Of a DNA stretch of 64,000 nt, positions 41,008-52,623 are shown one piece after another. The notes beneath the pieces were generated by a model. The model saw only the letters and a list, made by a program, of their open reading frames with translations, ran no database searches and was not told the DNA's origin. The position numbers were made by a program, and so were the translations under genes. The DNA is from Anaeromyces robustus (lineage: Eukaryota > Neocallimastigomycota > Neocallimastigomycetes > Neocallimastigales > Neocallimastigaceae): assembly GCA_002104895.1 (NCBI GenBank), contig MCFG01000113.1, forward strand, positions 88,501 to 152,500, read 5' to 3'. How positions within the stretch are numbered: position 1 is the stretch's first letter; the number at the start of each line of letters is the position of its first letter.

Positions 41008-44000
41008 ATGGAAGATTTTGACAATAATCAAATCAATATTGAAGAATTAATTACACAAGGTTTAAACGATAAGGATGATTTTATATCAACCAATAAAAAT
41101 AATAGTGAAGACGAGAATTCAATGTATACTTGTGTAAAATTGGAACCATCAGAATTAGAAGAATGTCCACCAACATATAATTATTTAAAAGTTGAATGTT
41201 CATTTTCAAAGCATTACAATAGTATAGGCCAAAACGTTAAAGCTTATGTAACTATTTTAAATGATTGTTTTGAAGAACTAAATAATATTAAATGTATTAT
41301 TAGTAGCAGTGAAAATTATTTTAATACTTATTCATTTATTATTAATTCAATTCAAATAAATGAAGTAATTATTAAAGAAGTTAATCTTACAATATATGAT
41401 AAGTATTTAAACACTGACAATTATGATTTATCATTCGAAAATGGTATTCTAATTGAAAATTTAATAGATAATTTGCCAAATAATATTTCAATTAAATTAA
41501 TAAATGAAAATCAAAGTAGTATTTTACCAAGCTATCCATCAATATTTAATATTACATCTGACTTTTTCATAAAAGATTTATTAAAAATTAATGAAACAAA
41601 TGAAATATTTAACGTAATGATTTTAGGATCATCATTAGATACTTCAAAAAACTTTACTAATAGTTTAAAATTACTTTTTGAAAATTATAGTAGTAACAAA
41701 ATTGATTTTTCCAATGATAATACAATTAAAAATAGTTTTATTGAAAAATATCTAGATAACGATCAATGGCCTTTAAATATAAGAATATTTTATAATACAA
41801 ATTATAATCATCTTAATCAAAAACAAAAGGAAGATAAAAATTTATTAAAATATATTTTAAATGGCTATTTTCCAAATGATAATAGTATTGTTCATCTTAC
41901 TGGAAAAAAACCCTTAGATTATAATAAAATTTGGAATGAAATAGAAACATATCAATTAGAGGAATGTATTGAAAATATGGAATCTTATTATTTATATAAT
42001 AAAGCTTTACCTAAAAACAATAAACAGTATATAAATGCATTAATTATTCTTCTTCCTGTAATTGCAAACACTAATTTAGAAATATTAAACATATATAAAG
42101 AATTAGCAGATTATGTTGCTAAACAAGGTAGACCAGTATATATTGTATTAGACAATTATATTAATAATTCGATTTCAGATTCTTCTTTAACAGATGTTAA
42201 TGATTCAAAAAACGAAATTAATTTTATAAATATTATTAATGAATTTTCACTATATCCAATTTTTACTACCAGTTCTTATGAACTAATTACACTAAATGAT
42301 AATGATGCATATGACTATAATCCAAATATGATTCAAAGATTTAAAAAGAATATGAATAAAGATATACTTTTACTTCATATGGTTAACAGAATAATAAAAG
42401 ATTTAATTGAAATAAATAGAAGTCAAAAAATGTTAATCAATCCTGAAACAGAAAATACAGATATCATAATTATGCTTTATTGGAATAATGAATACGATCA
42501 AAATTTAAATTTAATTCCAACAGTTATAGGAGAATGTTATTCAAAATATAACAGTAACAGAATGGCATTAATATCAAATATTAATCAGAAGCTTAATATT
42601 AGTTTTAAAGATAAGAGATTAGATTATTTTAAGGAATTAGCATCATTTGATATAGAATCTATGGAATATGAAAATATTGATTTTAAAGAAATATTAAACA
42701 CTATGGAAAATTTATTAAAAGAATCAAATAATAATAATAATTGGAATATTTGGATAATCACAAATACTGAAATTTCTAATACTGATATTAATATTATTGA
42801 ATCAAAATTAATAAAAAAGCAGAACGATAAAATATTTTATGTTAACATTAGAGACAAGCAAGATATTGGAGATTATCATAATGATAATTTAGAAATGGCA
42901 GCTTCACATTCAAATCATTTTTTAAATGTAGAGAATATCGATTCATTAATAGAATACTTTTGTAAAAATACAAAGAAAAATAATAATTTGGTCATTAATC
43001 CAAAATTAACATTAAAGTAATTAATATTTATATATATTGTATAATATATTTTAAATTATATAATAAAAGTAATTAAAATAATATTAATAAACTAATATTA
43101 TTTTTTATATTACAATTTACGAATTAGTATGATTAAACAATACTCAACTAATGATGAAATGTATGTATCTGAGCTATTTTTTGTCATATTAAAATAGATA
43201 TTTTTAAATATTCATTATAATTAATATATTATATTTTATAATTTAGAAATGTTAATTATTCTTGTGAGAATATTGGTCCTCTCTTATTGAAATACGACTT
43301 TAAAATTCCTTCATCTATATCCCTTATTCATAATATTTCTAAAATGTATATAAATTAGTTATATATATATATATATTTAATTAATTAAAAATTCTAACAT
43401 TTAATTAAAAAATAATAATAAATAGGACATTATCTAACTGTAAATTAAGAGGAACCATTCCAGATGCATTAAAATATTTAACAAATTTAAATGAACTGTA
43501 AATGTCAATATTAGATTATTATAAATTTAATAATTTAGTTGCTATAAAAAATATAATGTTACTTATATTTTTATTAATATTATTAAACTAAATGATAGAT
43601 ATTTGAACTTTAATCGTCTTGAAGGAAGAATCCCTGAATTTATCGGAAATATGAAAAATTTAAAAATTCTGTAAATATTATTATTATTATTATTATTATT
43701 ATTATTATTATTATTATTATTATTATTATTATTATTATTATTATTATTATTATTATTATTATTATTATTATTATTATTATTATTATTATTATTATTATTA
43801 TTATTATTATTATTATTATTATTATTATTATTATTATTATTATTATTATTATTATTATTATTATTATTATTATTATTATTATTATTATTATTATTATTAT
43901 TATTATTATTATTATTATTATTATTATTATTATTATTATTATTATTATCATTATTATTATTATTATTATTATTATTATTATTATTATTATTATTATTATT

Positions 44001-50000: not shown

Positions 50001-52623
50001 TATTCCTAATACCATAGGAAAATTGAAAAATCTAAGATTATTGTAATTATTATATCTATCTATTTATTTATTTATTTATTTATTTATTTATTTATTTATT
50101 TATTTATTTATTTATTTATATATTTATTTATTTATTTATTTATTTATTTATTTATTTATTTATTTATTTATTTATTTATTTATTTATTTATTTATTTATT
50201 TATTTATTTATTTATTTATTTATTTATTTATTTTACAATATTCTTATTATCATATTAATATTAAAATATCATATATAAATAGACATTTAGAAGAAAATCA
50301 ATTAAGTGGAAGAATTCCAAAGGAAATTGGTGAATTAAAGAATTTAGTTGAACTGTAAAATTTGATACAATATTATAATTTTTATCTACATATATTATAA
50401 TATTTCTTATGAATTTAATTTACTGATAAAACCATTATACAGATATTTGAGAAATAATCAATTAACAGGTGTCATTCCAAAATCAATTGGAAATTTAAGT
50501 GAATTAGTTATTATGTATGGATTTTATATCTTATATAATATAAATATATACCAAAATTAAAAATTGTATTAAATATATGACATTATTAAAAATTATACTA
50601 TAATATTAAATATATAACATTGTTAAAAAAAGTTCTATGCAAAATAATAAATTTATTGGACCACTACCAGATACTTTAGGAAAACTAGAAAATTTAACTG
50701 AATTGTAATATATATAATAATATATTCCTTTCACATATATAAAATATATATTAATTATTTTATATATTTTTATAGACGTCTTGATAATAATGAAATTGAT
50801 GGTAATATCCCATCTACAATTGGTGATTTGAAGAAACTTAATGGATTGTATATATTTTATAAAATAATAATATAAATAAAATTTTAAATATTACTAAAAA
50901 ATAAATAATAACATACTTAAATTTTTTTTTAAAAAATTATTACAATAAATATTACATAGATTATTAAATATAAATCATCTGAATGGTGAAATACCTGAAT
51001 CAATAGGACATATGAAAAACTTAAATAGATTGTAATCTTTATAACTTATTTTTTTATATATAACAATAATAAATATTAATTTATTTATGTTTAAAATTTA
51101 TATGATATATGATATTCTCAAAAATAGATGGCTTAACCTTAATCAACTACATGGTGAAATTCCAAGTTCTATAGGAAAACTAAAAAATCTGAACTTAATG
51201 TAATATAATATTTAAAAATATAAATACGATATATATATTATATAAAAAATTTTTAGTAAAATATAAGGAAATTTATAATATATAAATTACAATATATACA
51301 TAGTCGTTTAGATAATAATCAACTTAGCGGAAATATTCCTAACACTATTGGAGATTTAGAAAACTTAACAGCATTGTATGAATATTATAAAACTATTATT
51401 ATTATTATTATTATTATTATTAATATTATTATTATTATTATTATTATTATTATTATTATTATTATTATTATTATTATTATTATTATTATTATTATTATTA
51501 TTATTATTATTATTATTATTATTATTATTATTATTATTATTATTATTAATTATTAATTATTTATATTTTTATTATTATTATTATTATTATTATTATTATT
51601 ATTTATTATTATTATTTTATTTATATCATATAAATTCTTAAGATTAATTAACTTAAATTGTTTAGACGGAACTATTCCGGAATCAATTGGAAATTTACAA
51701 AATCTTGAAAGACTGTAAACACATTTATATTTATTTATTTATTTATTTATTTATTTATTTATTTATTTATTTATTTATTTATTTATTTATTTATTTATTT
51801 ATTTATTTATTTATTTATTTATATTATTAATCTAATTTAATATTATAGATGGCTTAATAATAACTATTTACATGGAAAAATTCCAAATAATATTGGAAGT
51901 TTAAATAAATTAACATTATTACATGTTGAAAATAATCAAATATCCGGTAATATTCCTTTAGCTTTATGTCAATTGAAAACATTAATTGGACTGTAAGAAA
52001 TTAAAAATCTTATATGTATATCAGAATTTTTAAATAATTAATAATAACAATGTTAGTAATAATAATATAAAAATCTTTTATCGATAACCTATTATAGATA
52101 TCTAAATAATAATAAATTAGAGGGTTCTATACCATGTTCAATTGGAAATTTAATAAATTTAACTCATTTGTATGTCATTATATATATATATGTTGAGTTT
52201 AAAAAAAAAAATAATTAATTAATTATTAACTATTGATTATTAATACTTTAGACGTTTGGATTCCAATCTATTAAATGGACAAATACCTGATTCTATCGGT
52301 TATTTAATCAATCTTTCATTATTGTAATTATTTAATAATAAATTATTTAATTTTTTATATGTTAATATAAAATTAAAAAAAAAAAAATTATAACATATAA
52401 ATTTTATATTTAGGTTTTTATGTAATAATCAAATTATTGGTCCAATCCCCGATTCTATTGAAAATTTAACTAAACTCTCACAAATGTAATATTTATATAT
52501 ATTAAACTAATAAATTTCATATTCATAATAATAATAACAATAATTAATTATTATTTTTTTTTTTTTTAACTTTATTTATAATACAAATTATTTTTATATA
52601 GTAACCTTGAAATTGTTGATTAA
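41008..52623 (+). CDS. giant 45-LRR protein with unusual N-terminal module, 47 exons, 1,800 aa
   Basis: Exon 1 (41008-43016) leaves its open frame at a GT donor two bases before an apparent stop. It joins 43128-43160, 43247-43345, then 43 LRR exons (43426-52485), and ends with 52602-52623 (stop TAA). All junctions are phase 2 and the total is 5,403 nt. There is no signal peptide or membrane segment, so it is probably cytosolic. Residues ~58-195 look like a beta-sandwich. Residues ~200-385 have a nucleotide-binding-like pattern with a degenerate P-loop (ILGSSLDTSKNFTNS, 205-219). Residues ~484-660 resemble a von Willebrand A domain lacking its metal-site DxSxS (TDIIIMLYW...MALISN...WIITN). From ~714 come 45 LRRs of the plant type (LxxNxLxGxIPxxIGxLxxLxxL), 24 residues each. 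Family unrecognised; a recognition/scaffold role is inference. Confidence 0.88.
43676..44130. repeat. (ATT)n microsatellite in LRR intron
   Basis: About 450 bp of ATT triplets with rare substitutions make up the first half of the 1,004-bp intron 43671-44674. The minus-strand open frame across it is Ile/Leu low-complexity only. Confidence 0.97.
44131..44610. repeat. (ATTAGT)n hexanucleotide array in LRR intron
   Basis: About 480 bp of ATTAGT units with ATTAGA and ATTAAT variants follow the ATT block in the same intron. Every ATTAG unit resembles a 3' splice site. Confidence 0.95.
45820..46246. repeat. (ATT)n microsatellite in LRR intron
   Basis: About 425 bp of ATT triplets with one missing base near 45922, inside the 536-bp intron 45734-46269. 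Confidence 0.97.
50059..50232. repeat. (TTTA)n microsatellite in LRR intron
   Basis: TTTA units with one ATA interruption near 50118, inside intron 50043-50282. Confidence 0.95.
51396..51601. repeat. (ATT)n microsatellite in LRR intron
   Basis: ATT triplets within intron 51376-51642. The Ile- or Leu-only open frames across it are artefacts of the repeat. Confidence 0.95.
51725..51822. repeat. (TTTA)n microsatellite in LRR intron
   Basis: TTTA units inside intron 51715-51848, directly before a two-repeat LRR exon. Confidence 0.95.

Follow-up and report, generated by a model that had tools for sequence, protein, structure and literature searches.

A leucine-rich repeat array encoded one repeat per phase-2 exon in a probable anaerobic gut fungus

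What kind of gene places 45 leucine-rich repeats (LRRs) on exons of almost uniform length and identical phase, and how might such an array have arisen? The question is raised by positions 41008-52623 of a 64,000-nucleotide (nt) stretch of contig MCFG01000113.1, referred to here as the window, in which an earlier reading of the letters (the original prediction) had marked an LRR array. We assign a probability of about 0.75 to the following explanation. A single gene of 47 exons would encode an intracellular protein of ~1,800 amino acids (aa), or ~1,130 aa if exon 1 is separate, whose 45 C-terminal plant-type LRRs would form a solenoid that binds a partner or ligand; its repeat exon would be a cassette reused in other genes, and the array would have grown long ago in blocks.

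Exon anatomy of the array and the gene model

A mechanical scan for AG-[72 nt]-GT, run without a gene model and with an open phase-2 frame required, revealed 41 stretches on the + strand of 43001-52700 and one on the opposite strand. Each of 20 first-order Markov sequences of the same region gave 0-3 AG-72-GT matches, and a chance origin of the 72-nt exon array was ruled out by these two controls. The 144-nt version of the scan revealed two open exons with two repeats each (45413-45556 and 51849-51992). The array comprises 43 LRR exons (41 of 72 nt and two of 144 nt) at 43426-52485 (+), that is, 45 repeats × 72 nt = 3,240 nt. These numbers are exactly those of the original prediction, including its 41 exons of precisely one repeat.

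Three upstream exons and the last exon were placed by hand from GT, AG and frame. If spliced as drawn, the resulting 47-exon model runs from ATG to stop over 5,403 joined nt (1,800 codons plus the stop), and its single stop is the terminal one. Each of the 46 introns is GT-AG and in phase 2 and each of the 45 repeats has 24 residues, which bears out the earlier proposal of phase-2 joining at GT/AG sites with uniform repeats. Retention of any of the 46 introns would bring in an in-frame stop. The introns measure 71-1,004 nt, with 42 of the 46 at 150 nt or less, and their G+C content is 8.1%; the LRR exons have 24.4%, and the window ranges from 10 to 23% in 2-kb steps. The introns at 43671-44674 (1,004 nt) and 45734-46269 (536 nt) consist mostly of ATT/TTA and related microsatellites, and TTTA repeats were seen in other introns.

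The features of the model are as follows:
41008..43016 (+): exon 1, a 669-aa domain with the start codon; probably part of the gene
43128..43160 (+): exon 2, 33 nt, phase 2 on both sides, carrying an ATG at 43129; placed by hand
43247..43345 (+): exon 3, 99 nt, the putative N-terminal LRR cap, ending in ...NISKM; placed by hand
43426..52485 (+): 43 LRR exons with 45 plant-type repeats, all phase 2; from the scan and Pfam LRR_1
45413..45556 (+): double exon, repeats 7 and 8 with no intron between them; from the 144-nt scan
48770..52323 (+): clearest five-exon order, repeats 25-44, RLWHY RLWHY S RLW RLWHY R
51849..51992 (+): double exon, repeats 41 (W class) and 42 (H class); from the 144-nt scan
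52602..52623 (+): last exon, 22 nt, a short tail and the stop, with no membrane span seen by eye; placed by hand

The repeats follow the plant-type consensus LxLxxNxLxGxIPxxIGNLxxLxx, with Pro 12 conserved in 45 of 45, Asn 5 in 44 and Gly 9 in 43. The intron interrupts the codon for the first Leu of LxL. This first residue is L in 38 repeats, I in four, M in two and F in one, and repeats 8 and 42 are unsplit. Pfam LRR_1 matched the first 361 aa of the LRR part at 5.5e-45. The best PDB relatives of the LRR part were receptor kinases that we take to be from plants, namely GSO1 (8e-143) followed by FLS2, PEPR1 and MIK2; the lower rows include SHOC-2 and LRR proteins presumably from Leptospira, i.e. 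animal and bacterial LRRs. The 45 repeats would form a long solenoid with a very long inner face, on which a partner or ligand could be bound.

The long microsatellites in several introns, together with two introns as long as 536 and 1,004 nt, might be taken as signs of a decaying or silent gene. However, neither an internal stop nor a frameshift was found across the joined coding sequence, and the structural residues are retained in nearly all repeats, which makes decay highly improbable.

Order of the repeats and proposed growth of the array

Along the array, the residue that follows the split Leu reads TYHYQYKYWRGHYRIWHYWHYRCWRLWHYRLWHYSRLWRLWHYRF. The succession of neighbours is far from even: H was followed by Y in seven of seven cases and L by W in four of four, R was followed by L in four of eight, and W was followed by H in five of eight and by R in three of eight. 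The mutual information between neighbours in this column was 1.92 bits, a value that none of 60,000 permutations reached. This marker column was chosen after looking, and 17 repeat columns were tested for order; in the neighbour test it was the strongest (0/5,000), the last residue was second (p 0.0004) and the rest were above 0.04, while a 3-mer test gave three further columns at p 0.005-0.042. Additionally, repeats of the same class were more alike outside the two marker columns (protein, 0/5,000 shuffles; DNA, p 0.0026; third codon positions, p 0.026), as judged on 37 of the 45 repeats after eight with other letters had been left out. A simple period in whole-repeat similarity was weak, with the best offset at 14 (p 0.03 over 24 offsets tried).

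Given the repeated order of R, L, W, H and Y, the same inner-face residues would recur, through much of the array, at intervals of about five repeats; a partner that is long or repetitive would fit such a surface. In our view, five-exon and three-exon blocks were duplicated in the distant past, a five-repeat surface is maintained by selection, or both. As for the mechanism, the growth of the array may be old and may have proceeded by copying several exons at a time, often five (R-L-W-H-Y) or three (R-L-W or W-H-Y), presumably via unequal crossing over within introns, an event that leaves the frame intact. Two junctions would either have lost their intron or never have had one. In particular, the junction between repeats 41 and 42 looks like a precise intron loss, since the other four W-H junctions carry introns.

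Some results weigh against growth by block duplication. Because column 3 covaries with the marker column, resemblance outside the two markers cannot count as independent evidence. On whole repeats, the diagonal test for duplicated blocks gave weak similarity for protein (p 0.027) and none for DNA (p 0.18) or third positions (p 0.60). Introns carried no class signal: similarity was not raised among those of same-class repeats (p 0.29 and 0.59), and the case for block duplication therefore depends on the coding order. The order R-L-W-H-Y could also be the product of selection for a five-repeat surface.

A recent expansion is unsupported: the best pair of repeats shares 83% DNA identity and the mean is 58%, with 5 of 990 pairs at 75% or above. 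Among the 44 of 46 introns shorter than 300 nt, intron homology was limited to one pair above the top shuffled score (205 vs 139), both members of which are TTTA-rich. In nine targeted intron comparisons, two gave p 0.01-0.02 (after repeats 25/30 and 26/31) and seven gave nothing; a tenth lacked an intron. The array had been pictured in the original prediction as a system that grows by exon duplication. Duplication is supported, although not of single exons only, as the order points to blocks of several exons; for recent growth, neither the repeat pairs nor the same-class introns gave a sign.

The lack of class-wise similarity among the introns could also mean that introns were inserted at equivalent places into a pre-existing intronless array, rather than multiplied with the exons. 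Unsplit plant-type arrays do exist in this genome; one 701-aa frame on C690, for instance, contains six repeats of 24 residues. Such a history would call for more than 40 independent insertions at an identical place and phase, plus more in at least 11 other genes, which is improbable, and introns of 8% G+C would in any case quickly lose recognisable similarity. We consider insertion a doubtful account and retain the duplication of exons together with their introns.

Every LRR exon is 72 or 144 nt long and in phase 2, and the exons are frame-neutral, as had been claimed. With such symmetric exons, crossing over in introns is safe for the frame and exon skipping would be harmless to it; neither process was itself observed. 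It is conceivable that the array serves as a store of alternative exons, of which splicing skips differing sets to give many proteins from one gene. Any skip would preserve both the frame and the repeat register, and exons of this kind are alternatively spliced in brown algae (PMC11378527). Nothing in the sequence hints at regulated skipping, although no search was aimed at such signals, and we judge this use of the array to be quite unlikely.

Reuse of the cassette and the place of exon 1

The genome searched comprises 769 contigs (70.2 Mb); nine LRR loci of IMG/VR were left out of the comparison. Phase-2 LRR exons of 72 nt were found at ten of the 15 other LRR loci scanned, these ten having been chosen because their matches sat in short frames and looked split. 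A stricter scan of the ten loci, scored on at least seven of ten core positions, gave 55 exons (51 of 72 nt, two of 69 nt, one of 144 nt and one of 75 nt) and none on the opposite strands; the scan leans to 72, because seven lengths were allowed and 72 nt took precedence at any start that fitted more than one. The contig pairs C501/C739 and C97/C354 showed identical LRR match scores, as expected of duplicated haplotypes in the assembly.

A second split LRR gene lies in the window itself at 2209-5024 (+), with 72-nt phase-2 exons at 3162-3233, 3368-3439 and 3627-3698 and probably two more. By eye, it has a signal-peptide-like start with a Cys pair, and its last exon holds a membrane span together with a tail rich in Asn and Pro. 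Signal-peptide-like starts, often with a Cys pair, and/or a membrane span after the array were likewise seen by eye in at least six of the ten siblings (L078, L079, L080, L083, L084 and L086). On C57 (L097 + L081, 247000-252500), a probable protein kinase precedes an array of ten LRRs, whose phase-2 exons measure 72 nt (seven), 144 nt (one) and 75 nt (one). Pkinase matched the first piece of this kinase at 1.4e-30, and the second piece at 9.1e-7 (29.0 bits, under the cut-off of 31.7). With hand-chosen splice sites, the kinase could be joined to the LRR array through a phase-2 cap exon, in an order (kinase before LRR) that is the reverse of that in plant receptor kinases. The exon scored as 75 nt in the stricter scan is the first part of a 144-nt exon in the C57 model.

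The end of exon 3 (...NISKM) resembles the cap ends of the sibling genes, and the cap exon ends are alike across three kinds of partner context, both as judged by eye. In our reading, a single phase-2 LRR cassette has probably been joined to different partners across at least 11 other genes. This cassette, of 72 nt in phase 2 with its intron in the codon of the first Leu of LxL, recurs beside a kinase, signal-peptide-like starts, membrane spans and the 669-aa orphan domain. The 43-exon gene is the extreme member of this exon-cassette family among the loci scanned. The array had been called striking for a fungus; it is not unique there, as the same kind of exon is present at the ten other loci and in the second gene of the window.

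The partner in the present gene would be exon 1, an open frame of 677 codons from stop to stop. Against Pfam, it gave two matches, both under the cut-off, with no kinase and no ROC-COR match over the cut-off. NCBIfam and PADLOC gave none at E 1, and PDB gave nothing better than E 1.5. In its own genome, the 669-aa domain matched once, to itself, and a method limited to close relatives gave none for IMG/VR or for GTDB genomes. From its appearance we considered a degenerate GTPase or a von Willebrand A-type domain, and nothing supports either.

Exon 1 is probably joined to the LRR exons through a candidate phase-2 intron at 43017-43127 (111 nt, 7.2% G+C, GT...AG). Alternatively, there may be two genes, a single-exon gene from 41008 to the TAA at 43018 and an LRR-only gene that begins with the ATG at 43129, little more than 100 nt downstream. 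The frame of the 669-aa domain does close in a plain stop, an ATG stands right behind the exon 2 acceptor, and no relative of the domain was found that could reveal a fusion. However, the gap has only the length and composition given above, where 41 of the 45 other model introns measure 71-150 nt, and it is bounded by GT...AG in the shared phase 2. In addition, C57 has a kinase in the same place, which would be joinable in the same manner. We find two genes somewhat unlikely, though the most serious of the alternatives, and continue with a single gene. Its 1,800-aa translation showed no signal-peptide-like start and no membrane span by eye, and the protein should therefore act inside the cell, unlike several of its siblings.

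Further points stand on the other side of the balance for the single intracellular protein and its cassette. The 5' junction is uncertain, given the ordinary TAA after the 669-aa frame and the ATG that starts exon 2, and the absence of a signal peptide was judged by eye. Four of the 15 scanned loci had no such exon (C161, C46, C83 and C90; excerpts of ~3-4 kb), C412 gave only chance-like matches inside an open frame, and the ten positive loci were preselected as split-looking. The four blank loci indicate that not every LRR gene is split; cassette reuse still stands.

A bolder proposal would make these genes a modular receptor system, in which shuffling, always in frame, attaches the phase-2 LRR cassette to kinases, to membrane proteins and to orphan intracellular domains, with the 43-exon gene as its extreme, having a repeating R-L-W-H-Y surface and a length that can differ between strains or transcripts. 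We offer this as speculation that is unlikely to hold in full. About a dozen cassette genes with different partners make the genome a compact testing ground for exon shuffling. The five-exon order directly predicts a periodic binding surface, and the gene is of interest for repeat-protein evolution.

Other genes in the window were read by eye. Positions 36000-38900 (-) read like a kinesin motor gene with many introns, 53475-57986 (-) hold two adjacent long frames with the look of an inositol hexakisphosphate kinase type, and 6927-10384 (-) hold a long, internally repetitive frame of charged coiled coil next to a kinase-like one.

Host and comparison with known systems

The host is probably an anaerobic gut fungus, in keeping with the fungal origin that had been suspected. 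PF02013 of Pfam, which we take to be the fungal dockerins of Neocallimastigomycota, gave at least 150 matches in the genome, all over the cut-off, from 683 candidates. It gave none in 14 control genomes, a weak control as these are probably prokaryotes. Among the open-licence papers listed by the literature searches, judged by title and abstract opening, none describes LRR exon arrays in anaerobic fungi.

Gut fungi live on plant matter, and the best PDB matches of the array are plant receptor kinases; the cassette and its introns might thus have been acquired horizontally from a plant and then amplified. The repeat type, intron position and phase are also as in rice LRR kinases (PMC3050792). 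On the other hand, for three sibling caps, neither the plant LRR N-terminal cap nor any other Pfam family matched at E ≤1, and PDB is rich in plant LRRs, with bacterial and animal LRRs in its lower rows. Moreover, 72-bp LRR exons in brown algae and phase-2 LRR exons in animals (PMC11378527) raise the possibility that the design is ancestral or convergent. A plant origin by transfer is thus, in our view, unlikely.

In rice LRR kinases, 72-nt exons each encode one repeat, and phase-2 introns split the first Leu of xxLxLxx; ERECTA, SERK and SYMRK are named there among the split-LRR plant kinases (PMC3050792). The fungal array shares with them the 24-residue plant-type repeat, the one-repeat exon and the place and phase of the intron, and the parallel with plant LRR kinases drawn earlier was therefore upheld. 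In contrast, the rice proteins combine extracellular LRRs with a kinase, whereas here 43 LRR exons stand at the C-terminal end with no kinase, and neither the membrane span nor the signal-peptide-like start of plant receptor kinases was seen by eye.

Brown-algal ROCO genes are reportedly the subject of Zambounis 2012, which we know through a citing paper. In these genes, each LRR occupies one 72-bp exon, called phase 2, and exon shuffling, alternative splicing and diversifying selection are reported; the brown-algal genome has additional genes with LRR exons beyond ROCO (PMC11378527). Their partner is a ROC-COR GTPase and their LRR consensus is another, whereas exon 1 gave no ROC-COR match over the cut-off. 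The brown-algal repeat lies at exon nucleotides 3 to 71, compared with 2 to 70 here, and the intron position may differ by one base (PMC11378527).

LRR exons are also modular in human NLR genes, which hold LRR classes other than the plant-type array (PMC6642158), and the gonadotrophin receptors carry LRR modules on short in-phase exons, as cited in PMC11378527. In Tetrahymena, arrays of 90-bp LRR exons with phase-2 introns, at 1 to 51 exons per gene in T. thermophila, are read as exon shuffling (PMC6564038). Those arrays are long and uniform with phase-2 introns, as is the present one, but they consist of 90-nt exons with 30-residue repeats in thousands of genes, whereas the exons here are 72 and 144 nt only.

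The length and uniformity of the array, which the original prediction singled out, thus have close precedents in brown algae, Tetrahymena and rice. With 43 LRR exons, the gene exceeds the most complex rice LRR kinase genes, which have at most 27 exons (PMC3050792), and stays below the Tetrahymena maximum of 51 (PMC6564038). The one-repeat-per-exon design, described for plants, animals, brown algae and Tetrahymena and now placed in a fungus, was already known; newly described are the fungal host, the size of the array and the five-exon order R-L-W-H-Y.

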